From Clavibacter michiganensis subsp. tessellarius (lineage in GTDB: Bacteria > Actinomycetota > Actinomycetes > Actinomycetales > Microbacteriaceae), in the NCBI RefSeq assembly GCF_021922985.1, contig NZ_CP040788.1, positions 930,001 through 994,000 of the forward strand: a stretch of DNA of 64,000 bases, given 5' to 3'. The translations under genes and the position numbers were made by a program. Below are positions 53,288 to 63,523 of this stretch, in pieces (position 1 is the stretch's first letter; each line of letters opens with the position of its first letter). The notes below the pieces were generated by a model. It had not been told where the DNA came from. It ran no database searches and saw only the letters and a list, made by a program, of their open reading frames with translations.

Positions 53288-54583
53288 GTGACCCCCACCC
53301 CATCCCGTCCCGACGCGTCCGTCCGCACGACGCCGTCCCTCCCGAACCGCGACGCCCGCCGTCGCCCCCGTCGCGGCCTCGCCGCCCTCGCGTCGGCCGC
53401 CGCCCTCGTCACCGCCGTCGCCGTCGGCCTCCCGGCGGGCTCCGCATCCGCCGCCGCCCCGAGCACGCCCGTCCCCGGCATGCAGGTCCCCGCGCTCAAG
53501 GACGTCCTCGGCGCCGCCGGCATCGAGCACGTCGGCGTGGCGATGGGCAGCGGCGAGGTGCAGGGCACCTCGGCCGACCTCATCGCCCGCCACTTCAACG
53601 CCATGACCCCGGAGAACGAGGGCAAGGCCGACGCCATCCAGCCCGTCGAGGGCCGCTTCGACTTCACCGGCGTCGACAAGCTCCTCGACTTCGCCGACGC
53701 CCACGGCATGAAGATGTACTTCCACGTCGACTTCTGGATGCCGCAGACGCCCGCCTGGTTCTTCCTCGACAACGGCCGTCCGCTCACGAACAGCCCCGCC
53801 GACCAGGCGCTGCTCAAGGCGCGCATGGAGGCCCACGTCAAGGCGATCTCCGACCACATCGCGTCCCGCTACCCGAACGGGAACAGCCCCATCTGGGCGA
53901 TGGACGTCGTCAACGAGGTCATCGACGACGGCCCCAACGCGAACCCGCACCACATGAAGGACACCCGCTGGTTCCAGGTGCTGGGCGAGGGCTTCGTCGA
54001 CGAGGGCTTCCAGCTCGCGAAGAAGTACTTCCCGGGCGTGAAGCTCTTCATCAACGAGTACAACACCGACTCGCCGAGCAAGCGCACCGACTACCTCGGG
54101 CTGATCTCCGCCCTCCTCCAGCGCGGCATCCCGGTCGAGGGCGTGTCGCAGCAGAGCCACATCGGGCTCCGCACCGACATCGAGCAGCTGAGGAACACGA
54201 TCCACGCGGTGAAGGCCCTCGATCCGAACCTCATCGAGGCCATCTCCGAGCTCGACGTCGGCGCCTCGCAGGCGGCCGCGACCGGCAACAGCCAGAACCG
54301 CGCGCACACGGCGCCGATCTACTCGAACCCGGACGACACCGCCGCGGCCGTGGGCTGGGTCTACAAGGACCTGTTCACGATGATCCGGCAGGAGGCCGCG
54401 AACCTCGACTCGGTCACCTTCTGGGGATCGGACAACTCGCGCACCTGGCTGCACAGCCCGTCGATCGACCAGCCGTGGGACCAGCCGCTCCCGTTCGGGG
54501 TGAACCAGGAGGCCATGCCCGCCTACTGGGGCATCGTGGACCCGTCGAAGCTCCCGGCGCGTCCGCCGCTGCCGGAGGCCTGA
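53288..54583 (+). CDS. Secreted GH10 endo-1,4-beta-xylanase, first paralogue
   Basis: A 431-residue secreted protein. A long Arg-rich N-terminus with a hydrophobic core (LAALASAAALVTAVAVGLP) and SASAA cleavage region suggests a signal peptide of about 55 residues. The GH10 barrel follows: FNAMTPENEGK, the acid/base Glu210 in WAMDVVNEVIDD, SQQSHIGL, and the nucleophile Glu321 in AISELDVG. The subsite -1 motif FWHSQ of most GH10 enzymes reads FWMPQ (Met151), an unusual change. GTG start with GAGAGG upstream. No carbohydrate-binding module is present. It lies 170 nt upstream of a paralogue, separated by a strong terminator. Clavibacter is known to have paired GH10 xylanases (xysA, xysB); assignment of which is which is left open. 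Confidence 0.92.
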   Translation: MTPTPSRPDASVRTTPSLPNRDARRRPRRGLAALASAAALVTAVAVGLPAGSASAAAPSTPVPGMQVPALKDVLGAAGIEHVGVAMGSGEVQGTSADLIARHFNAMTPENEGKADAIQPVEGRFDFTGVDKLLDFADAHGMKMYFHVDFWMPQTPAWFFLDNGRPLTNSPADQALLKARMEAHVKAISDHIASRYPNGNSPIWAMDVVNEVIDDGPNANPHHMKDTRWFQVLGEGFVDEGFQLAKKYFPGVKLFINEYNTDSPSKRTDYLGLISALLQRGIPVEGVSQQSHIGLRTDIEQLRNTIHAVKALDPNLIEAISELDVGASQAAATGNSQNRAHTAPIYSNPDDTAAAVGWVYKDLFTMIRQEAANLDSVTFWGSDNSRTWLHSPSIDQPWDQPLPFGVNQEAMPAYWGIVDPSKLPARPPLPEA

Positions 54584-54600
54584 TCACCTCCTGAGTCACC

Positions 54601-54639
54601 ACAGCGGCCCCCGTCCTCGTCGAGGACGGGGGCCGCTGT
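54601..54639 (+). terminator. Terminator after the first xylanase gene
   Basis: A near-perfect 19-bp stem (ACAGCGGCCCCCGTCCTCG with its complement) begins 18 nt after the stop codon. Confidence 0.85.
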
Positions 54640-54661
54640 GCGTTCGTTGCCATACGCAACA

Positions 54662-54679
54662 AAGGTTTTCGAATACCTT
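54662..54679. promoter_or_regulatory. Operator-like near-palindrome before the second xylanase
   Basis: AAGGTTTTCGAATACCTT is symmetric at 16 of 18 positions with a central CG, the pattern of LacI-type operators. It overlaps a possible -35 (TTGCCC, 54678-54683) that is 18 nt before TACGGT (54702-54707). Another small inverted repeat (GTTGC-n5-GCAAC) lies at 54646-54660. Confidence 0.5.
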
Positions 54680-54753
54680 GCCCCCCGCAGGGGAGGGTGC
54701 CTACGGTGCGAGCATCCGACACCGAAGTCGGACCACATGGAAGGTGTTCGACG

Positions 54754-56748
54754 ATGAGCATTCCCCGCACCACCACGTCCGCGCTCGCGGACGTCAGCCC
54801 TCCGAGCCCCGGCCGCAGCGGCCTCGGGGCCCGCCCGCGACGCGACCGCCGCCGCGGCCTCGCCGCCCTCACCGCCCTCGGCCTCCTCGCCGCAGCGGGC
54901 GCCCTGACCGCCCCCGCCGCCCAGGCCGCCGACCGGGTCCCGGCCGGGGTCGGATCCGACTTCGAGTCCGGCACGGACGGCTGGGCCCCGCGGGGCGACG
55001 GTGTCCGCATCGCCCCGAGCACCGAGGCGCGCACCGGGTCCGGCAGCCTCCTCGTCACCGACCGCACGCAGGAGTGGCACGGCGCCGCCCTCGACGTCAC
55101 GTCGTCGCTCGCCGTCGGCCAGGAGGTCGAGGTCACCGTGTGGGCGCGCCTCGCGCCGGGGGAGGAGCCCGCGTCGCTCAAGGTCTCCGTGCAGCGGGAC
55201 ACCGGCGGCGGCAGCGGCTACGACGGGGTCGCCGGAGCCGCCGCGCGCGTCACCGCCGACGCGTGGACCGAGCTGACGGGCACCTACACGCTCGGCGGAC
55301 CGGTCGACAAGGCGCAGGTCTACGTGGAGGGCACCGTCGGCGCCGACTTCCTCCTCGACGACTTCCAGCTGGGCGACGCCGTGGGCACGCCCGTGCAGAC
55401 CGACATCCCGGCGCTCAAGGACGTCCTCGGTGCCCGCGGCATCGAGCACGTCGGCGTCGCCATCGACGGCCGCGAGACCGTCGGCGCGGGCGCCGACCTC
55501 GTGAGCCGCCAGTTCGACGCCTTCACGCCGGAGAACGCCGGGAAGCCCGAGAGCGTCCAGCCGGAGGAGGGGCGGTTCACGTTCGCGCAGATCGACCAGC
55601 TGCTCGACTACGCCGACCGGACGGGCACGAAGGTCTACTACCACGTGCTGTTCTGGCACTCGCAGACGCCCGCGTGGTTCTTCCTCGACGGCGACCGCCC
55701 GCTCACCGACAGCCCCGCCGACCAGGCGATCCTCCGGGCGCGCATGGAGGCGCACGTGAAGGGCATCTCGGACCACGTGGCGGCCCGCTACCCGGACGGC
55801 GGCAGCCCGATCTGGGCGATGGACGTCGTGAACGAGGTCATCGACGACGGCCCCAACGACAACGCGCACGACATGCGCGACAGCCGCTGGTACCAGGTGC
55901 TGGGGGAGGGCTTCGTCGACGAGGGCTTCCGCCTGGCGCGCGCCTACTTCCCGGGCGTGAAGCTCTTCATCAACGACTACAACACGGAGCTGCCGACCAA
56001 GCGCGCCGACTACCTCGAGCTGATCTCCGCGCTCGTCGCCCGCGGCGTGCCGATCGACGGGGTGGGCCACCAGGCGCACGTCGACTTCGCGCGGCCCGTC
56101 TCGTGGTTGCGCGACTCGATCCGCGCGGTGGAGCGCATCGACACGCGCCTGCTGCAGGCGATCACGGAGCTCGACGTGAACGCGTCGAACCAGAACGAGG
56201 GCGCCGACGTGAGCGGGGCGCCGCAGGATCCGTACACGCCGGTGTACGCGGACGACGCCGAGGCGGGGGCGGAGGTCGGCTACTACTACCGCGACCTCTT
56301 CCAGATGATCCGGCAGCAGGCCGCGTCGATCGACTCGATCACCTTCTGGGGCGTGAGCAACGCGCGCAGCTGGCTGCGCACGTGGCCCATCGCGCGACCG
56401 TGGGAGCAGCCGCTCCCGTTCGACGACGCCCTGCAGGCGGCTCCCGCCTACTGGGGGATCGTGGACGCGAAGAGGCTGCCGGCGCGTCCGGCCGACCTCT
56501 CGGCGCCGCGCATCGCGGACGTGGACGACATCGCCGCGGTGGCGACCAAGGCCACGGGCACGCGCGTCCCGTACGCGCTGCCGTCGGCCATCGACACCCG
56601 CGACGGGAACGTGCGCGTGGTGTGCGACCCGCCGCGCAGCGGGGTCTTCCCGGTGGGGACGACCACGGTCACCTGCACGGCGGAGGACCGCGCCGGCAAC
56701 GTGCGGACGACCACGTTCGACGTGGTGGTGACGCGCGCCGGCAGCTGA
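54754..56748 (+). CDS. Secreted GH10 endo-1,4-beta-xylanase with CBM-like and HYR domains
   Basis: A 664-residue secreted xylanase. After an Arg-rich start and signal core (GLAALTALGLLAAAGALTAPAAQAA, cut to the cleavage motif AAQAA near residue 60) comes a CBM4/9-like beta-sandwich (about 65-210, SDFESGTDGWAPRGDG). The GH10 barrel follows (about 215-580) with FWHSQTPAWFF (His302), WAMDVVNEVIDD (acid/base) and AITELDVNAS (nucleophile). At the C-terminus there is a HYR-type domain with VVCDPPRSGVFPVGTTTVTC and DRAGN. The ATG at 54754 has GGAAGGTG upstream. A palindrome before the promoter suggests sugar-responsive control. Sequence and intact catalytic residues make it the more conventional enzyme of the pair. 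Confidence 0.93.
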   Translation: MSIPRTTTSALADVSPPSPGRSGLGARPRRDRRRGLAALTALGLLAAAGALTAPAAQAADRVPAGVGSDFESGTDGWAPRGDGVRIAPSTEARTGSGSLLVTDRTQEWHGAALDVTSSLAVGQEVEVTVWARLAPGEEPASLKVSVQRDTGGGSGYDGVAGAAARVTADAWTELTGTYTLGGPVDKAQVYVEGTVGADFLLDDFQLGDAVGTPVQTDIPALKDVLGARGIEHVGVAIDGRETVGAGADLVSRQFDAFTPENAGKPESVQPEEGRFTFAQIDQLLDYADRTGTKVYYHVLFWHSQTPAWFFLDGDRPLTDSPADQAILRARMEAHVKGISDHVAARYPDGGSPIWAMDVVNEVIDDGPNDNAHDMRDSRWYQVLGEGFVDEGFRLARAYFPGVKLFINDYNTELPTKRADYLELISALVARGVPIDGVGHQAHVDFARPVSWLRDSIRAVERIDTRLLQAITELDVNASNQNEGADVSGAPQDPYTPVYADDAEAGAEVGYYYRDLFQMIRQQAASIDSITFWGVSNARSWLRTWPIARPWEQPLPFDDALQAAPAYWGIVDAKRLPARPADLSAPRIADVDDIAAVATKATGTRVPYALPSAIDTRDGNVRVVCDPPRSGVFPVGTTTVTCTAEDRAGNVRTTTFDVVVTRAGS

Positions 56749-56758
56749 CCGCCGCTCG

Positions 56759-56796
56759 CGGATCCCGCGCCGTCCTCCCGGACGGCGCGGGATCCG
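56759..56796. terminator. Bidirectional terminator after the second xylanase
   Basis: A perfect 17-bp stem with a TCCC loop, between the xylanase stop codon and the convergent membrane-protein gene. Confidence 0.8.
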
Positions 56797-56800
56797 TGCG

Positions 56801-57307
56801 TCAGCGCAGCGCGGAGATGACCAGCACCAGCGCCGCGAAGCCGACGATGGTCCACGGCATGAGCAGCAGCACCGAGGAGGCGACCCGCCAGCGCCGGTCC
56901 GCGTCGCGGGAGAGACGCTCCCGGAGCGCCTCGGCGACGGCCTGCCGGGACAGGGAGACGGACAGCGCGGCCGCGGCGACCAGCAGGCCCGCCCCGCTCG
57001 CGATCGCGGCCGGCGCCATGTCGGCGCTGCCGTCGATCCAGGCGGACCCGCTGAGGGCCACGAGGACGAACGTGGCGATGAGCGCGAGGACGATGAGCGC
57101 CGGGGCCCCGGCGGGGGACTCGTCGTCGGGATCCGCGATGGCCGCGGCGTAGACGACGGGGTCGCCGAACGCCGTGCCGGCGTCGCCCCCGGCCTCGCGC
57201 ACGTGCTGCCGCACGGTGTCGACCGCCTCCTCGATCCGGTCGGGGGCCATGTGCCTCCTGTCCAGCTCGGTGCCGAACTCGTCGATCCACCTGTCGGTCG
57301 TGTCCAT
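56801..57307 (-). CDS. Membrane protein paired with padR (HAAS-like)
   Basis: A 168-residue protein with a soluble N-terminal helical domain (about 1-70, IDEFGTELDRRHMAPDRIEEAVDTVRQH) and three to four hydrophobic segments (about 70-90, 100-125 and 145-168). The soluble part followed by membrane helices resembles the DUF1700/HAAS-type proteins that are encoded next to PadR regulators and act as membrane anchors or anti-regulators. The ATG overlaps the last base of the padR stop (TGATG), so the two are translationally coupled. The role is unknown. Confidence 0.75.
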   Translation of the reverse strand: MDTTDRWIDEFGTELDRRHMAPDRIEEAVDTVRQHVREAGGDAGTAFGDPVVYAAAIADPDDESPAGAPALIVLALIATFVLVALSGSAWIDGSADMAPAAIASGAGLLVAAAALSVSLSRQAVAEALRERLSRDADRRWRVASSVLLLMPWTIVGFAALVLVISALR

Positions 57308-57681
57308 CAGCTGCTCCTGTCGATCTCGTTGAATGCGTCGGCCGTGCCCGTGAAGCGCGCCCACGCCTCGCGGAGCCGTGCCGCGTGCGCGTGGCCGTCC
57401 TCGGTGAGGACGAAGTACTTGCGGCCGGGGCCCCCGTCGCCCGGGCGCCATTCCGTCGCGACGAGCCGCCGGCGCTCCAGCCGCGCGAGCAGGGGGTAGA
57501 GGCCGCTGCCGGTCACGCCCCGGAACCCGGCCCGTTCGAGCCGCGTCAGCATGGCGTAGCCGTAGGACGGCCCGTCCCTCAGGGAGGTGAGGACGAGGAG
57601 GGGGAGGAGCGCCCTCACCCATTCGCCGCTCGGCTCCAGGGCGGGCGACGTCCCCGCCTCGTGCCCGTCGTCGTGATCCAT
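57307..57681 (-). CDS. PadR family transcriptional regulator
   Basis: A 124-residue winged-helix repressor. The pattern VLTSLRDGPSYGYAMLTRLERAG, GSGLYPLLARLERRRLVATEW, and the wing GPGRKYFVLTEDG is diagnostic of PadR; the C-terminal helix is short. PadR repressors usually bind lipophilic compounds and often control ABC exporters and bacteriocin loci. It is divergent from the bacteriocin precursor gene 300 nt away, and a perfect inverted repeat lies 30-51 nt before its start. The neighbourhood suggests that it senses or regulates the bacteriocin cluster, but this is inferred from location. Confidence 0.88.
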   Translation of the reverse strand: MDHDDGHEAGTSPALEPSGEWVRALLPLLVLTSLRDGPSYGYAMLTRLERAGFRGVTGSGLYPLLARLERRRLVATEWRPGDGGPGRKYFVLTEDGHAHAARLREAWARFTGTADAFNEIDRSS

Positions 57682-57710
57682 GACTAGATCGTGTCCCGGA
57701 CTAGTCGCTC

Positions 57711-57732
57711 TCGATACCGACGAAGGTATCGA
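57711..57732. promoter_or_regulatory. Inverted repeat, probable PadR operator
   Basis: TCGATACC-n6-GGTATCGA is perfectly symmetric. It lies 30 nt upstream of the padR start codon and overlaps the -35/spacer position implied by a possible -10 (TAGTCC, minus strand, 57698-57703). Autoregulation of padR and control of the divergent bacteriocin promoter are both possible. Confidence 0.6.
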
Positions 57733-57980
57733 CCTCCGGGACCGGGTTCCTCGGCCGTCGTGGCGGCCCGTCCCCGCCGCGCCGGCGCCGCGGGTCCCCG
57801 CGGGGCCCGGTCCGGGGCATCCCATCGGACCATCGCGAGTAGACGTACGTCGTCCCGCGCTGGCCGTGAGGAGGCGGCCCCCGCGGACGGTCCTGCCTAG
57901 CGTGGGCCGTGCACCAGGCATCGAGCACCCGCACCTGCCACGGACGGGTCCACCTGGTGCCGGATCAGGAAGTTGTCACC
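57733..57980 (+). promoter_or_regulatory. Upstream region of the bacteriocin precursor gene
   Basis: About 250 nt without a supported gene. It holds a palindrome GACGTACGTC (57842-57851), a TAGCGT box (57898-57903), a long-range stem GCACCAGG/CCTGGTGC (57911-57918 with 57953-57960) and the ribosome-binding AGGAAG (57967-57972), 8 nt before the ATG. The TAGCGT box lies 5 nt before an in-frame GTG (57909), which would give a 24-residue N-terminal extension if translated leaderless. Confidence 0.5.
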
Positions 57981-58286
57981 ATGAGCGCCATCAGCACGGA
58001 CATCACGAACTCGAGCCGGACGTCCACCTGGAAGGTGGCGGCCGTCGGGGCCGCACTCGCCTTCGCCGTCGTCGGACTCGTCGTCACCGGCTTCGACCCC
58101 ATGTGGATCGCCGGATCGCTCGGCATCAGCGCCGCTGCCGCGAGCCAGATCGTGGCGGCCATCAAGGCCGGCCGGACGGCCGTGACGGTCGTCGCGGCGA
58201 TCGCGGGCGCGGGAGTCGCATCCGCCATCACCGCGACCATCGCGTTCATCGCGATCAGCTGGGCCGCCGGTCCCGCCATCGCCTGA
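57981..58286 (+). CDS. Probable circular bacteriocin precursor (uberolysin/carnocyclin/AS-48-like)
   Basis: A 101-residue peptide. Residues 1-40 form a leader with a hydrophilic start and a hydrophobic helix (VAAVGAALAFAVVGLVVTG, 19-37). From about Met41/Trp42/Ile43 the rest is almost purely Ala/Ile/Val/Gly with only Lys62 and Arg65 charged. The stretch IAGSLGISAAAASQIVAAIK aligns by eye with the first helix of circular bacteriocins (compare the FGIPAAVAGTVLNVVEAG of AS-48 and the LAGYTGIASGTAKKVV of uberolysin). A Gly-rich turn and two further helices follow. Predicted mature length of 59-61 residues fits the 58-70 range of the class. The ATG has AGGAAG 8 nt upstream. Exact cleavage and ring closure cannot be read from sequence, and the very low net charge is atypical. 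Confidence 0.8.
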   Translation: MSAISTDITNSSRTSTWKVAAVGAALAFAVVGLVVTGFDPMWIAGSLGISAAAASQIVAAIKAGRTAVTVVAAIAGAGVASAITATIAFIAISWAAGPAIA

Positions 58287-58299
58287 CGATCGCCCCACC

Positions 58300-58330
58300 G
58301 GGGGTCGGACGTCCGGTACGTCCGACCCCC
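58300..58330 (+). terminator. Hairpin after the bacteriocin precursor gene
   Basis: A perfect 13-bp stem (GGGGGTCGGACGT with its complement) with a 5-nt loop, 14 nt after the precursor stop codon. It probably causes partial termination or protects the precursor mRNA, so that the precursor is made in excess over the transport genes. Confidence 0.75.
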
Positions 58331-58366
58331 TCTCCTCACCCAGAGCATCAGAGATCGAGGCCATCC

Positions 58367-58894
58367 ATGTCGTCCACCTCCCTGGAGCACCGCTCCGCCG
58401 CCCGCCCGACGACCGTGACGGCGGCGTTCTGGCTCGTCCTGCTCTCCGCGGCGGTCGCGGCCGTCTCCGCGTTCCTGGCCATCCAGGCCCTCCTCTCGGC
58501 CGAGGGCTCGGAGGAGCTCCGCCGGACGATCGAGGCGACACCGGAGGCCGCGGGAGGCGACATCGACATGGAGTCGCTCGTGGGCATCGCCCGTGCGACC
58601 GCGGTCGCCATCCAGGTCCTCCTCATCGTGGTGTCGATGGCGATCGCCCTGTGGATCGCGTTCGCGATGCGCTCCGGCCGCGCGTACATCCGCATCGTCG
58701 CGGTCGTGCTGGCCGTGTTCCAGGCGGTGGGCACCGTGACGGCCCCGTCGCCCGCCTCCGTCGTCAGCCTCGCTCTCATCGTCGGCGCGCTCGTGCTCAT
58801 CTGGGCTCCGGCCTCCAGCCGCTACGTCGCGGAGCGCACGGCGGCGCGACGCCGTCCGCAGGACCCCGCGCGCGAGCCGTCGTTCGTCGGATGA
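58367..58894 (+). CDS. Unknown four-helix membrane protein of the bacteriocin cluster
   Basis: A 175-residue protein with four predicted transmembrane helices (about residues 18-43, 78-106, 111-131 and 135-152), a loop with acidic residues (SEELRRTIEATPEAAGGDIDMES) and an Arg-rich C-terminal tail. The helix arrangement resembles small DUF2975-like or DUF4386-like proteins but no family can be assigned with confidence. Its ATG has GAGG 6 nt upstream, and its stop overlaps the SpoIIM-like start (ATGA). Position between precursor and SpoIIM gene suggests a role in maturation, export or immunity. This is inferred. Confidence 0.7.
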   Translation: MSSTSLEHRSAARPTTVTAAFWLVLLSAAVAAVSAFLAIQALLSAEGSEELRRTIEATPEAAGGDIDMESLVGIARATAVAIQVLLIVVSMAIALWIAFAMRSGRAYIRIVAVVLAVFQAVGTVTAPSPASVVSLALIVGALVLIWAPASSRYVAERTAARRRPQDPAREPSFVG

Positions 58895-59502
58895 CGACCA
58901 CCCCGGCCGTGCGCAGGGGCGCCGTCGCGGCCCCTCCCCGCCCGAAGGCCTACCTGCTGTCCGCCTCCGTCGTGCTGGTGCTCGCGGGAGCGGGCTCCGC
59001 CGCCGGCGCCGTGGCGATGACGGGCATCGCGATCCCCGGCGCGTCCGGGGTCCGCGCCGGGCTGGCGGGGAGGAGCGGATTCGACGAGACGCTCCTCGGC
59101 GTCCTGGCCGCGAACGTGCCCGTCGCCGCCTCCCTCGCCGCCGGCCTCGTCACGTTCGGCGCGGTCTCCGCGCTCTTCGCCGTGCTGCTCGGCGTCTACC
59201 TCGGCGCCACGGTCGCCGGATCGGTCAACACCGTCGGCGCCGGGCCCCTGCTCGACTCCGTGGGCGCCTACGTGGGCCTGGAGATGCTGGGCCTCCTCCT
59301 CGCCGGCGTGGCCGGCATGCTGCCCGCCGCGCACGTCGTGCTCGGGATGAGGGGCGTGCGCAGCAGCGCGTGGCGCCGGTACCTGTCGGCCCTCGCGCCC
59401 GCCGCCGTCCTGCTCGGGATCGGCCTCGCGCTGCTGGCCGTCGGGGCGGTCGTCGAGGCCACGGTCATCACGGCGAGCGGATCCGGGCTGGGCGAGAGGT
59501 GA
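58891..59502 (+). CDS. SpoIIM/DUF95-family membrane protein
   Basis: A 203-residue protein with about five hydrophobic segments. The pattern LLGVLAANVPVAASLAAGLVTFGAVSALFAVLLGVYLGA is characteristic of SpoIIM/DUF95 (N-x-P in the second helix: ANVPVA); GLEMLGLLLAGVAGMLPAAHVVLG is the matching E-G-type region. DUF95 proteins occur in nearly all circular bacteriocin loci and are needed for maturation or secretion, although their exact action is unknown. Its ATG overlaps the preceding stop codon and its stop overlaps the ATPase start, so the genes are translationally coupled. Confidence 0.83.
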   Translation: MTTTPAVRRGAVAAPPRPKAYLLSASVVLVLAGAGSAAGAVAMTGIAIPGASGVRAGLAGRSGFDETLLGVLAANVPVAASLAAGLVTFGAVSALFAVLLGVYLGATVAGSVNTVGAGPLLDSVGAYVGLEMLGLLLAGVAGMLPAAHVVLGMRGVRSSAWRRYLSALAPAAVLLGIGLALLAVGAVVEATVITASGSGLGER

Positions 59503-60428
59503 TCGACGTCGCGGGCGCGCGCAAGGCCTACGGCCAGGTCGCGGCCCTGGACGACGTGGAGCTCCATGCGCGAGCGGGCGCCGTGACCGCCGTGGTCGGC
59601 CCGAACGGCGCGGGGAAGTCGACGCTTTTCCGCGCGATCCTCGGGCTCGAGCGGCTCGACGGCGGCAGCGCCCTCGTGGACGGCGTCCCCTTCGCCCGGG
59701 CTGCGTCTCCCCAGCGGGTGGCGGGCGCGGCCATCGACTCGTCGTCGTTCCACCCGCGCCGTCGAGCCGTCGACGAGGTCCGGATCGCCGCGGCCGCCGG
59801 GGGCATCGGGCGGCGTCGCGTGCCGGAGGTCCTGGAGGAGGTCGGCCTGGCGCACGCCCAGCGCAAGCAGGTGCGCACCCTGTCGATGGGCATGCGGCAG
59901 CGGCTGGCCATCGCCGTGGCACTCCTCGGGAGACCCCGGAACCTGATCCTGGACGAGCCCCTCAACGGCCTCGACGTCGACGGGATCCAGTGGGTGCGGG
60001 AGCTCCTCCTCGCGAGCGCCTCCGCCGGCAGCACCGTGCTCATCTCCTCCCACGTCCTCACGGAGGTCGAGCGCGTCAGCGACGACGTCCGCATCCTCGT
60101 GGGGGGCCGGATCGCGTCCCGCGACCGCTCCGTGGCCTCCGCCGCGGGGGCTCCGCCCACGGAGGTGCTGGTCGTCACCGACTCGCCCGTGGAGCTGGCG
60201 GCGCTGCTGCGTCGGCATGGGGCGACGACGGAGGGCGAGGGGAGGAGCCTGCGCGTGCGCGGCATGCGCGCCCGCACCGTCGCGGAGCTGGCCTTCCGCG
60301 ACCGGATGCTCGTGGAGACCCTGTGCGAATCGACGGAGTCGCTCGAATCCGAGTACCGCCGCGTCCTGGCCGACGCGCGGCCGCGCCCCGACGCGTCCCG
60401 GCGCCCTCTCGAGGGACGGCCGGCGTGA
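59499..60428 (+). CDS. ABC transporter ATP-binding protein, first module
   Basis: A 309-residue ATPase. Walker A GPNGAGKST (about residue 38), signature LSMGMRQRLAIAVAL, Walker B LILDEPLNGLDVDG, and switch His in VLISSHVL. A C-terminal extension of about 90 residues (after GGRIASRD) is typical of drug/bacteriocin exporter ATPases. The GTG start overlaps the SpoIIM stop by 4 nt (GTGA) and its stop overlaps the permease GTG. Together with the next gene it forms an ABC-2-type transporter, probably for export of, or immunity to, the bacteriocin. Confidence 0.88.
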   Translation: MIDVAGARKAYGQVAALDDVELHARAGAVTAVVGPNGAGKSTLFRAILGLERLDGGSALVDGVPFARAASPQRVAGAAIDSSSFHPRRRAVDEVRIAAAAGGIGRRRVPEVLEEVGLAHAQRKQVRTLSMGMRQRLAIAVALLGRPRNLILDEPLNGLDVDGIQWVRELLLASASAGSTVLISSHVLTEVERVSDDVRILVGGRIASRDRSVASAAGAPPTEVLVVTDSPVELAALLRRHGATTEGEGRSLRVRGMRARTVAELAFRDRMLVETLCESTESLESEYRRVLADARPRPDASRRPLEGRPA

Positions 60429-61297
60429 CCGGGGAGCACGAGCCCACCCTGCGGACGCGGCGACGGCAGACGGCGGGCGACGTGCTGCGATCCGAGCTCC
60501 TCATGGCCTGGACCCTCGGGTCGCAGCGGATCCTGTGGACCGCGGCGCTGGTCGGGGGGCTGGTGGGGACGGGGACGGCGCTCGTCTTCGTGGAGGTGCT
60601 CGCCGCCGTCGGGGGAGCGGCCGCCTCGGAGGTGGACGCGCTCGTCGGCCGCGCCTCCGTCAGCGGAGCCGCGACGGTGGCCCTGCTCCTGGGCCTCTCA
60701 TCCATCCACCTCTCCGCCGGGCAGCGGTCCACCGGTCGGCAGCGCCTCACGCACCAGATGGTCCCCGCGACGAGCCGCACGTTCGTCGCGCGCGTCGTCG
60801 TGGCGGGCGGCATCGCGGCCGGCGTCGCGGTCGCCGCCTTCCTCACGGGCGCGATCCTCGTGGCGGGCGTGTGCGCGCTGACGGGGCGGACCGCGGACGC
60901 CCTCGGCGCGCATGGACTCGCGATCGTCGCCTGCACCACGGCCGGCGTCACGCTGACCGTGGTGCTGGCCGCGGCGATCGGCCTCGTCGCCCGACACGGC
61001 GTCGTGGGGGCCACCGCGTTCCTCGGGATCATGGTGATCGGCCCCGCCGCGCTGGGCACGGTCGGCGCGACCGCCTCCCTCGAGGCCCTCTCCTGGGCGG
61101 CGACCGCGCTCCCGGCGGGCCGCCTGGGCGCGGTCGTCGAGTCCGCCGCCGTGGGCGACGCCGAGGGCGCGCTCCTGGCGCTGGCGGCGCTGCTGGCCTG
61201 GGCCGCTGCGGCGCTGGGGCTGGCCTACGCCGTCTGGCGGGCCGAGGGCGCCGCGCGGCCCGGCCGCGGACAGGCGACGCCGGGGCGCGCGCGGTGA
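60425..61297 (+). CDS. ABC-2-like permease, first module
   Basis: A 290-residue membrane protein with about six helices and a cytoplasmic basic start (TLRTRRRQTAGDVLRSELLMAW). The helix spacing (about 35-60, 70-95, 118-145, 155-180, 195-220 and 240-265) matches ABC-2 membrane subunits, although no strongly conserved motif was seen. Its start and stop overlap its neighbours by 4 nt. It would pair with the ATPase before it. Confidence 0.75.
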   Translation: MTGEHEPTLRTRRRQTAGDVLRSELLMAWTLGSQRILWTAALVGGLVGTGTALVFVEVLAAVGGAAASEVDALVGRASVSGAATVALLLGLSSIHLSAGQRSTGRQRLTHQMVPATSRTFVARVVVAGGIAAGVAVAAFLTGAILVAGVCALTGRTADALGAHGLAIVACTTAGVTLTVVLAAAIGLVARHGVVGATAFLGIMVIGPAALGTVGATASLEALSWAATALPAGRLGAVVESAAVGDAEGALLALAALLAWAAAALGLAYAVWRAEGAARPGRGQATPGRAR

Positions 61298-62868
61298 TCG
61301 CCGAGACGAGGACGTCCGCGATCATCGCGGCATCGACGTCGACGCGGCGGTGGCGGCGGTTCGTCGCCGTCCCCGTGCTCACCCCCCGGCTCGGCCTCGC
61401 CGCCGCGGGCCTCGCCGCGGCGGCGTGGACGGGAGCGGGCGTGTGGGCGGGCTTCGTCGTCGTGGCCCTCGGCGTCGACGCGGGGACCGTCCTCACGGCG
61501 GCCACCGTGCTCGTGCTCCTCGCCGGCGTCGGGGCCGGCTCCCTCTGGGCGGAGGTCCGAGCGGCCCTGGCCGAACCGCGCAGCTGGTCGTTGTTCGCGC
61601 AGATGGGGACGAGGCCGCGCACCTACCTGATCGGCCGGCTCCTGGTGCCCCGCGCGGCACGGCTCGGAGCGGCGTGCTGCGGCGCCCTGAGCACCTGCGC
61701 CACGGCGTCCCTCCTCCGCCCCGAGGCCCTCACCCCGGCCCACTGGGCGCTCATCCCGCTCGCCGCGGGGGGCGGCCTCTCCGTGGGCGTCCTCCACGCG
61801 ACCGTCCGCCTCGAGCGCATCCGGCGGGCGTCGCCGACGCGGGCCGTGCTCCTCCCGATCGCGGTCGTCGGGGCGCTGGTCGCGTCCTGCTGGTGGTGGG
61901 CGGCCTCCTGGCTGCCGGGTCCGGTCGAGGCGCTGCTGGCCGGCACGACGCCGGATGCCCTCCCGGCCGTGCCCTGGCCGAGGGCGGCGGTCCTCGGGGC
62001 GGCGTGCGTCGCGTGCGCGGTCCTGGCCGCGACGCGCTTCCACCGCGCCGGCGCCCTGACCTGGTCCACCGTGACGACGCGATCCGACCTGACCGGTCCC
62101 CGTGCACCCCGCCGACCCGCACGCACCGGGGGAGCGCGCGTGCTCGTCGAGGTCATGCTGCTCGACCTCCGCCGCGCGATCCGGGCGTTCGAATGGCGCG
62201 TCCGTCCGGCGGCGTACCTCCTCCTCTCCCTCGCCGTCTCCGCCGCGCTGCTCGGCGCGATGGCCTCGTGGATCCTGGGCGACGGAGCCGAGGCGCTGCT
62301 CTCGAGCGACGTGGGGGCGACGCTGGCCGGGGGAGTGACGGCGGGGTACGTCCTGATCGTCTGGACCACCGCATCCGCGTGGTCGTCCCTCGACTCGGAC
62401 CGGGGCGGGACCGTCCTCATGCGCTCGCTCCCGCACGGCATCCGCATCCTGGCCGCGGCCCGAGCCGCTTCGGGGGCGTTCGTCATCGGCGCCGCGGGGC
62501 TCCTGCTCCTCGGCGTGCTCTGCGCCTTCGCGCCCCTCGGACCCCGCGCCGTCGGCACGGCCGCGTCCGCCTGCGCGACAGTGGCCCTCCTCGCACCGAC
62601 CCTCGGCTGCTGGGTGTCGCTCCGCCACCCGCACACCGAGTGGAAGGAGGTGGGGGAGATCGGCCGACACGGCTGGGCGCGATCGGGCATCACCTACCTG
62701 CTGGGTGCCGGCATGGCGCTCACGACCGCCGTGGCGTCGGGACGCGACTGGACCGCAGGGGAGGCCACCGCGGTCGCCCTCGCGTCGGCGTTGCTCACCC
62801 CGCTCGTCGCCGCCGGCGTCACCGCCACCCTCCCCACGAGAATCGGAGTCGGACATGCTCGAGGTTGA
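61294..62868 (+). CDS. Large membrane protein/permease, second module
   Basis: A 524-residue protein with about 12 predicted membrane helices. A central hydrophilic loop (about residues 255-290, with Arg/Pro-rich SDLTGPRAPRRPARTGG) separates two halves. WSLFAQMGTRPRTYLIGRLL in the first half resembles the cytoplasmic loop of ABC-2 permeases, so it may be a double-size permease (two fused subunits). It starts with GTG, overlapping the previous stop, and its end overlaps the second ATPase by 14 nt. Family unassigned. Confidence 0.7.
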   Translation: MIAETRTSAIIAASTSTRRWRRFVAVPVLTPRLGLAAAGLAAAAWTGAGVWAGFVVVALGVDAGTVLTAATVLVLLAGVGAGSLWAEVRAALAEPRSWSLFAQMGTRPRTYLIGRLLVPRAARLGAACCGALSTCATASLLRPEALTPAHWALIPLAAGGGLSVGVLHATVRLERIRRASPTRAVLLPIAVVGALVASCWWWAASWLPGPVEALLAGTTPDALPAVPWPRAAVLGAACVACAVLAATRFHRAGALTWSTVTTRSDLTGPRAPRRPARTGGARVLVEVMLLDLRRAIRAFEWRVRPAAYLLLSLAVSAALLGAMASWILGDGAEALLSSDVGATLAGGVTAGYVLIVWTTASAWSSLDSDRGGTVLMRSLPHGIRILAAARAASGAFVIGAAGLLLLGVLCAFAPLGPRAVGTAASACATVALLAPTLGCWVSLRHPHTEWKEVGEIGRHGWARSGITYLLGAGMALTTAVASGRDWTAGEATAVALASALLTPLVAAGVTATLPTRIGVGHARG

Positions 62869-63523
62869 TGCCGAGATCGGGTACGCGCACGGCGCGGCCA
62901 TCCAACGCGTGCGACTCCTCGTCGCACCGGGGGAGTTCGTGCTCGTGCGCGGTCCCAACGGCGTGGGCAAGTCCACGCTGCTGAGCACCGTGGCGGGGAT
63001 CCGCGCCCCCCTCGCCGGGACGGTCACGGTGGCCGGGCGCCCCACGCAGTCCTCCCGCGCACGGCACGACATCGGCTACGTCACCGACCCGCCGAACCTG
63101 TTCGAGGAGCTCACCCCGGCCGAGCACCTGCGTCTGGCGATGTCGCTGTGGCGCGCCTCGCGGCTGCCGGTGACCGGCATGGCGGCCGCCGCGGGCGTGC
63201 TCGAGGGCACGCCGGAGCTGCCGGCGACCATGCTCTCCCTGGGGCAGCGGAAGCGGTTGGGCATCGCCCTGGCGGTGCTGCACGGTCCGCGGCTGTGGGT
63301 GCTGGACGAGCCGTTCAACGGGCTGGACGACGCGAGCTGCCGCCGGCTCCGGGGATCCATCGACGAGCACCTCGGTCGCGGAGGCGCCGTCGTCTGCGCG
63401 ACCCACGACGTGGACGCGCTCGACCGTCCGGACGCGACAGTCCTGGAGCTGGCCGCGGGAAGCGCGACGGTCTCGCACCAGGCGTCCACCGCTCCGAGCC
63501 GCGCGTCCGGACCGGTCGCATGA
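62855..63523 (+). CDS. ABC transporter ATP-binding protein, second module
   Basis: A 222-residue ATPase: Walker A GPNGVGKST (about residue 33), a GxVTDPPNLFEELTP loop, signature LSLGQRKRLGIALAV, Walker B LWVLDEPFNGLDD and a switch His in VVCATHDVDAL. The start ATG overlaps the end of the large permease by 14 nt, so the two are coupled. It lacks the C-terminal extension of the first ATPase, suggesting a different partner and perhaps immunity. It ends the recognisable cluster. Confidence 0.86.
   Translation: MLEVDAEIGYAHGAAIQRVRLLVAPGEFVLVRGPNGVGKSTLLSTVAGIRAPLAGTVTVAGRPTQSSRARHDIGYVTDPPNLFEELTPAEHLRLAMSLWRASRLPVTGMAAAAGVLEGTPELPATMLSLGQRKRLGIALAVLHGPRLWVLDEPFNGLDDASCRRLRGSIDEHLGRGGAVVCATHDVDALDRPDATVLELAAGSATVSHQASTAPSRASGPVA

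Follow-up and report, generated by a model that had tools for sequence, protein, structure and literature searches.

Does a short, very hydrophobic peptide gene in Clavibacter michiganensis subsp. tessellarius, lying next to genes for a SpoIIM-like membrane protein and transporters, encode a circular bacteriocin, and how can this be judged when its product scores below the curated models for that class? The gene specifies a 101-residue precursor and is found in a stretch of 64,000 nucleotides (the window; contig 1, 930001-994000, of a 3.37-Mb genome, here G000), within a cassette of nine genes. An earlier note made from the letters of this DNA had proposed a probable circular bacteriocin cluster. 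Our analysis leaves this as the best-supported reading: judged from sequence comparisons, the locus is probably a mobile gene cassette whose product is a bacteriocin closed head to tail into a ring. This reading is carried by weak but controlled homology of the precursor, a conserved core length, the order of the genes and the presence or absence of the cassette as a unit.

The precursor is matched by two curated models of circular bacteriocins, TIGR03651 (21.8 bits; expectation [E] value, 1.8e-4) and PF09221 (Bacteriocin_IId; 17.0 bits; E, 0.0069). The profile comparison that the earlier note had put forward therefore bears it out in part: both models find the peptide, but neither score reaches its cut-off, 30.7 and 23.6 bits, respectively. 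With the scores below the cut-offs, specificity must be demonstrated separately. A six-frame search of 396 actinobacterial genomes with TIGR03651 gave matches at E ≤ 0.001 in four, namely, the window genome and three genomes of family f34; these three exceed the cut-off, the window genome being the sub-cut-off one of the four. None of 10 reversed or column-shuffled control cores matched TIGR03651 or PF09221. The match of the precursor to circular-bacteriocin models is specific despite the sub-cut-off scores. A search of plasmids with the precursor gave no match. At E ≤ 0.1, a plain protein search with the precursor produced weak matches in 37 of 99 genomes, including its own; besides the latter, a genome of the same genus, G005, held the one clear homologue among the 37, and this search is no evidence for anything beyond G005.

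Relatives of the precursor were gathered by genome scans. The scan of genome contigs returned a single relative, in Microbacterium sp. SMR1, which is 63% identical to the window's precursor over the full length; GISAAAASQIVAAIKAG, which the earlier note had cited as the first helix, falls within the stretch most conserved between genera. A profile of three precursors found six genomes at E ≤ 1e-4 among 398 of the family: the window genome, G005 (98% identity), G502, G562, G702 and G738. A seven-precursor profile, with no more than 12 candidates scored in each genome, matched the window genome alone among 394 genomes of the class. When the seven precursors were aligned, TIGR03651 matched all seven at E ≤ 1 (best E, 3.4e-6) and PF09221 matched five (best E, 8.8e-7). 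Scored singly with PF09221, the G562 precursor exceeds the gathering score (29.5 versus 23.6 bits), that of SMR1 lies just under it (22.7) and that of G502 scores 16.9; with TIGR03651, SMR1, G562 and G502 score 27.3, 26.3 and 17.5 bits, no relative reaching the cut-off. Weak matches in two other same-genus genomes, G015 and G017, have E values of only 0.005 to 0.006 within their short loci, and the surroundings of these matches (16 to 17 kb) hold no SpoIIM-like, precursor-like or permease-2-like gene at E ≤ 0.01; locus L006 also has a 30-residue stretch of permease 2 at an E of 0.004. Since neither curated cut-off is reached by the precursor of the window, we place it in a sister branch and not as a filed member of TIGR03651 or PF09221. 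This lineage is very probably a divergent branch, scored mostly below cut-off by standard annotation models.

The alignment of these precursors turns on an invariant Trp. From the residue after it to the stop codon, the core measures 59 residues and aligns without gaps in all six distinct precursors (G005, whose core is identical to that of the window, was left out of this count). The predicted leaders of the six are 42, 43, 75, 33, 33 and 33 residues long; as start codons were picked among several in-frame candidates, these lengths depend on the choice, whereas the core length is independent of it. In the window, the start codon is an ATG with a ribosome-binding-like site, AGGAAG, 8 bases upstream. 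Leaders of circular bacteriocins span 2 to 48 residues according to PMC8534725. With cleavage at the predicted site, the leader of 42 residues and the core of 59 would fall within the range of the class, whose cores have about 60 residues, and the leader of G502, at 75 residues, would lie beyond it.

A profile of the core, searched against 177,635 distinct PDB sequences, gave five matches: the best was enterocin NKR-5-3B, a proven circular bacteriocin (E, 0.0014; profile columns 2-57 aligned with residues 2-61), and the last was AS-48 (E, 5.1). A full-length precursor profile also returned NKR-5-3B first (E, 0.0015). The reversed-core profile found nothing in the PDB, and the column-shuffled profile found one unrelated protein, a histone (E, 0.28). 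Homology of the core to NKR-5-3B is supported by these searches, although it is weak in absolute terms. In the register of this alignment, Ile43 corresponds to residue 1 of NKR-5-3B. Circularin A and amylocyclicin start similarly to NKR-5-3B.

The genes that follow the precursor were described in the earlier note as a SpoIIM/DUF95 membrane protein and ABC (ATP-binding cassette) transporter genes, and this order stands, with a gene for a small membrane protein of 175 residues between precursor and SpoIIM. PF01944, with a cut-off of 26.9 bits, recognises a SpoIIM-like protein in all six loci: the scores of G502 (31.9), G702 (30.8) and G738 (33.5) exceed the cut-off, and those of Clavibacter (24.5), G562 (22.6) and SMR1 (18.8) fall short of it. 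The DUF95 assignment of the window protein is thus matched by the family model, but under the cut-off. In all five relatives (SMR1, G502, G562, G702 and G738) the SpoIIM-like gene adjoins the precursor gene or lies one gene on: it follows directly in the four G genomes and comes after the 175-residue protein gene in SMR1, as it does in Clavibacter. These SpoIIM-like proteins weigh most for G702 and G738, because the bacteriocin models barely detect the precursors of these two genomes. The SpoIIM family profile matched the SpoIIM protein of a canonical f34 cluster with an E of 2.9e-5 and a probability of 74%. Counterparts of all nine cassette proteins are found in SMR1 in the same order, with 43 to 63% identity.

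A comparison across Clavibacter genomes, another step that the earlier note had suggested, shows the cassette to be present or absent as a unit. It extends past the bounds first given, taking in the divergent PadR and HAAS genes (56801-57681), and including PadR it occurs in 2 of 18 same-genus genomes, its own and G005; among the 17 others, G005 alone has the precursor (E, 5.5e-50), permease 2 and the PadR/HAAS DNA. The GH10 xylanase-family gene upstream is present in 9 of 10 same-genus genomes searched, and six of these loci were compared. Homology of both carriers to the cassette-free loci ends at the same base, window position 56742, in all six. It resumes 40 to 47 bases past the last cassette gene of G005 in three of the six, with a prolyl oligopeptidase-family gene alongside; for the other three, the stretch retrieved gave no match to the downstream flank of G005. 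Between the flanks, three cassette-free sites hold 0.5, 1.4 and 3.5 kb of other sequence. Collinearity of the two carriers extends over 17,696-63,484, with two short gaps in between, and they diverge thereafter. The precursor is under constraint: its ratio of non-synonymous to synonymous substitution rates (dN/dS) between the carriers is 0.088 (eight synonymous and two non-synonymous changes), the lowest of nine genes, of which permease 1 was compared over 287 of 290 residues and ATPase 2 over 209 of 222. Both residue changes of the precursor sit in the leader, so that the two carriers have identical cores.

Several results weigh against a circular bacteriocin. The window's own precursor lies under both curated cut-offs, the G702 precursor goes unmatched in Pfam at E ≤ 0.1, and TIGR03651 detects neither that of G702 nor that of G738 at E ≤ 0.01. 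The net charge of the core is +4 in G562, G702 and G738, which carry a cationic C-terminal segment, and +2 in G502; it is +2 in Clavibacter and +1 in SMR1, where the C-terminal end is nearly uncharged and the segment of the three relatives is absent. AlphaFold models, with a mean pLDDT (predicted local distance difference test) of 51.0 for the precursor (7 sequences) and 57.6 for the core (8 sequences), are too poor to judge whether the peptide has the compact fold of four to five helices that marks the class, and Foldseek with the second (core) model gave one meaningless match (E, 4.8). When the core profile was aligned to one f34 core by hhalign, the probability was 1.2%, with the reversed control higher at 40.5%; hhalign fails to separate signal from composition for these cores. 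Finally, the gene set was called the usual one in the earlier note, and precursor, SpoIIM and ATPase genes are indeed there, but the 620-residue membrane protein of three canonical f34 clusters has no detectable homologue in the cassette, permease 2 showing no relation to it by hhalign.

The product may instead be a linear antimicrobial peptide, leadered or leaderless, that shares the helix-bundle ancestry and is exported but never ring-closed, and this would fit with the finding of no cyclase among the cassette proteins and with the occurrence in Actinomycetota, including Microbacterium, of leaderless bacteriocins with a compact helical fold (PMC11580447). However, the same article describes a DUF95 protein as class-defining for circular bacteriocins and leaderless clusters as being without one, while the precursor has a long leader ending in an invariant Trp, a core that runs for a constant number of residues to the stop codon and profile matches to circular families that align from the start of the ring sequence. 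We regard a linear peptide as unlikely. The aureocin A53-like leaderless bacteriocins of Actinomycetota (PMC11580447) are similar in being small helical peptides of related genera, but they are linear, are made without a leader and lack the class-defining SpoIIM protein, unlike the window cluster.

It is still less probable that the peptide has no antimicrobial role and instead serves an ABC/SpoIIM transporter of unknown substrate as a small membrane subunit, either structural or accessory. SpoIIM-like proteins occur in other settings too, and the very hydrophobic precursor, with the long helices of its low-confidence models, may suit such a subunit; against this, the matches to circular-bacteriocin models are specific, the leader varies while the core length is fixed, and the cassette is absent from 16 of the 17 other same-genus genomes, as accessory antagonism genes would be. 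Least probable of all, to the point of being scarcely credible, is a chance match, in which an Ala/Ile/Val-rich membrane open reading frame of a genome with 73% G+C resembles a bacteriocin by its composition. The many weak matches of the plain search (37 of 99 genomes) and the hhalign control that outscored the real profile both speak for it; nevertheless, it is already disfavoured by the controls, as no reversed or shuffled core matches the models and the PDB search with the reversed profile gave no hit, and it sits poorly with the dN/dS of the precursor and with the conservation of precursor and gene order in another genus.

If the cassette does specify a circular bacteriocin, we infer the cleavage site, ring closure, activity, regulation and membrane-protein roles to be as follows. 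The precursor would carry a hydrophobic leader, some 42 residues long, which would be cut off after Trp42, and the new N-terminus, Ile43, would be joined to the C-terminal Ala101 to give a ring of 59 residues that is very hydrophobic and slightly cationic. The calculated monoisotopic masses are 5344.03 Da for the linear and 5326.02 Da for the ring form of the Clavibacter core, and 5647.15 and 5629.14 Da for those of SMR1; a cut one residue earlier would add 186.08 Da, the mass of Trp. This ring may insert into the membranes of competitors and damage them. SpoIIM with ATPase 1, together with the second ABC module, may export the peptide and protect the producer, self-protection coming from SpoIIM/ATPase 1, the second ABC module or the 175-residue protein. 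An export role for SpoIIM is supported because removal of the SpoIIM protein leads to an accumulation of mature circular leucocyclicin Q within the cells (PMC7132975). The divergent PadR/HAAS pair would keep the operon repressed as long as no membrane or peptide signal is present, with relief of PadR as the trigger, and the hairpin after the precursor gene may let the precursor exceed the transporter. A more specific proposal, which we hold tentatively and rate at somewhat short of an even chance, is that Microbacteriaceae carry a separate circular-bacteriocin branch, mostly under the model cut-offs, in which cleavage behind an invariant Trp would release a core of always 59 residues and, in Clavibacter and Microbacterium, a common cassette would stand under PadR/HAAS control; the Clavibacter/SMR1 sub-branch would have lost the cationic C-terminal segment and so would probably act on membranes without the usual charge-driven binding.

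Known systems resemble the cassette to different degrees. The NKR-5-3B/circularin A/uberolysin group (TIGR03651, PF09221) shares with it the N-terminal core motif LGIS..AA, an alignment that runs from the beginning of the ring sequence, neighbouring SpoIIM and ATPase genes, and a very hydrophobic core, of 59 residues here versus 64 in NKR-5-3B. Unlike in that group, the scores here lie under the curated cut-offs, the leader ends in an invariant Trp, PadR and HAAS genes stand alongside, the cores of Clavibacter and SMR1 end in Ala without a cationic C-terminal segment, and no homologue of the 620-residue protein of the f34 clusters was found. Those clusters, in genomes G108, G182 and G204 (loci L035, L036 and L037), look canonical and belong to another actinobacterial family. 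They consist of a precursor, the 620-residue membrane protein, an ATPase, SpoIIM and a second ABC module; like the window cluster they have SpoIIM and two ATPases, but their precursor is over the TIGR03651 cut-off, the 620-residue protein stands between precursor and ATPase, and the core has 64 residues and ends in Trp. In G108 the SpoIIM frame (L035:6605-7483) continues into the next small gene, giving 292 residues where G182 and G204 have 204; this points to a difference in reading frame close to where the gene ends.

An AS-48-like cluster has been described in Arthrobacter sp. APC 3897, with a precursor 71.3% identical to enterocin AS-48 (PMC10456417). It is likewise a circular bacteriocin with a DUF95 gene in an actinobacterium, but, unlike that AS-48-type precursor, the core profile here matches AS-48 at an E of 5.1 only. 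One survey placed 6,925 of 6,928 circular-bacteriocin candidates in Firmicutes and two in actinobacteria, and named Mycobacterium abscessus as carrying an amylocyclin-like cluster (PMC8534725). Clavibacter is not named in the main texts, as far as available, of PMC8534725, PMC8659200, PMC7132975 and PMC5695211, and no report of the cluster was present among the literature matches listed, with coverage confined to openly accessible main texts. The class and its occurrence in actinobacteria are therefore known, and the Microbacteriaceae branch appears undescribed in the literature searched, within the parts of the texts available.

Table 1. Features of the bacteriocin-type cassette and its surroundings, in window coordinates
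Feature	Position	Strand	Basis or remark
Cassette, present or absent as unit, downstream of GH10 xylanase-family gene	56743..63523		Homology breakpoints
HAAS-domain-like membrane protein, likely PadR partner	56801..57304	-	PF22564 23.2 bits, cut-off of 27 missed
PadR-family regulator, divergent from precursor	57307..57681	-	PF03551 62.8 bits; 55% identical in SMR1
Inverted repeat GACTAG-N13-CTAGTC, candidate operator	57682..57706		Beside PadR start codon; putative role
Perfect inverted repeat TCGATACC-N6-GGTATCGA	57711..57732		Present in G005, absent from SMR1
Circular-bacteriocin-type precursor, 101 residues	57981..58286	+	TIGR03651 and PF09221 below cut-off; seven-precursor alignment
Predicted leader, residues 1-42, hydrophobic stretch, ends in invariant Trp	57981..58106	+	Seven-precursor alignment; putative cleavage site
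Predicted core, residues 43-101, 59 residues, net charge +2	58107..58283	+	Constant core length; NKR-5-3B register
Hairpin with 13-bp stem, 31 bases, past precursor stop codon	58300..58330	+	Intergene folding; same stem in G005
Small membrane protein, 175 residues, possible immunity or export factor	58367..58894	+	Putative role
SpoIIM/DUF95-like membrane protein	58891..59502	+	PF01944 24.5 bits, E 2.8e-5, cut-off 26.9
ABC transporter ATPase 1	59499..60428	+	PF00005 95.4 bits
ABC permease-like membrane protein 1, hydrophobic	60425..61297	+	No family match; 43% identical in SMR1; putative role from gene order
ABC permease-like membrane protein 2, 524 residues, hydrophobic	61294..62868	+	No family match
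ABC transporter ATPase 2	62855..63523	+	PF00005 83.6 bits; 62% identical in SMR1

The genes downstream of the precursor (Table 1) are tightly packed. The statement in the earlier note that almost all of them overlap by 4 nucleotides (nt) is true for four of the five junctions after the 175-residue protein gene (4, 4, 4, 4 and 14 nt), but the fifth overlaps by 14 nt and the precursor lies 80 nt from the next gene, an interval that holds a strong hairpin. A simple hydropathy scan indicates about four hydrophobic stretches in the 175-residue protein, for which searches with family models gave no family above cut-off and which is 44% identical in SMR1. The best NCBIfam model for ATPase 1 is that of a lantibiotic-protection ATPase, TIGR03740, at 167.7 bits, below its cut-off of 309.75. 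Permease 2 is 43% identical to its SMR1 counterpart over residues 234-521 and 42% across the whole alignment. The absence of a visible protease or cyclase, also remarked on from the letters of the DNA, was borne out, as none of the nine cassette proteins matched a peptidase or cyclase family over its cut-off. In SMR1, the counterpart of the 175-residue protein (L041:10385-10894) matches Peptidase_U4 (SpoIIGA) at 14.6 bits against a cut-off of 28.4; this match is probably due to chance, yet it is the sole protease-like hint in the cassette.

The 83-nt interval after the precursor folds more stably than all of 200 shuffled sequences (z, -3.16). The corresponding interval has a z of -2.37 in G005 (3 of 200 shuffles as stable) and, with a different stem, of -1.31 in SMR1 (18 of 200). 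The GACTAG-N13-CTAGTC repeat has the same arms in the same place in G005 and SMR1, as seen by alignment, the repeat finder listing that of SMR1 only. The perfect repeat at 57711-57732, which was noticed before it was searched for, occurs once in the window, against an expectation of 0.14 when up to three mismatches are allowed. A search of 57640-58400 gave neither a sigma-70-like promoter nor a terminator-like site. The HAAS-like protein is 46% identical in SMR1 and occupies the same position; SMR1 also has an extra response-regulator gene between PadR and the precursor. Around the SMR1 cassette (L041:6855-9846) there are genes for a histidine kinase and for a response regulator of the LuxR type; neither was seen in that of Clavibacter, and hence control may differ between the genera.

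If the cassette is what we propose, the short list of parts common to the six loci (precursor, SpoIIM and ATPases) would narrow the search for the ring-closing enzyme, and the constancy of the Trp and the core length beside leaders of 33 to 75 residues makes the question of leader cleavage and ring closure directly testable. A divergent branch in plant-associated actinobacteria would widen a class so far placed mainly in Firmicutes. It would also supply compositionally different sequences for that class and illustrate that curated cut-offs can hide class members. The cassette itself would be an accessory trait for antagonism in a genus to which crop pathogens belong.

The site of the cassette has some features of its own. 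A tRNA was considered as the insertion site and rejected. The replacement sequences at L091:1081-4595, L092:1046-2466 and L090:1046-1593, one of which contains a major facilitator superfamily (MFS) transporter gene, give the place the look of a variable site. Directly upstream of the cassette, two GH10 xylanase-family genes lie in tandem (window 53288-56748), and the second of these genes in one carrier shares 76% DNA identity over 1.1 kb with the first in the other.

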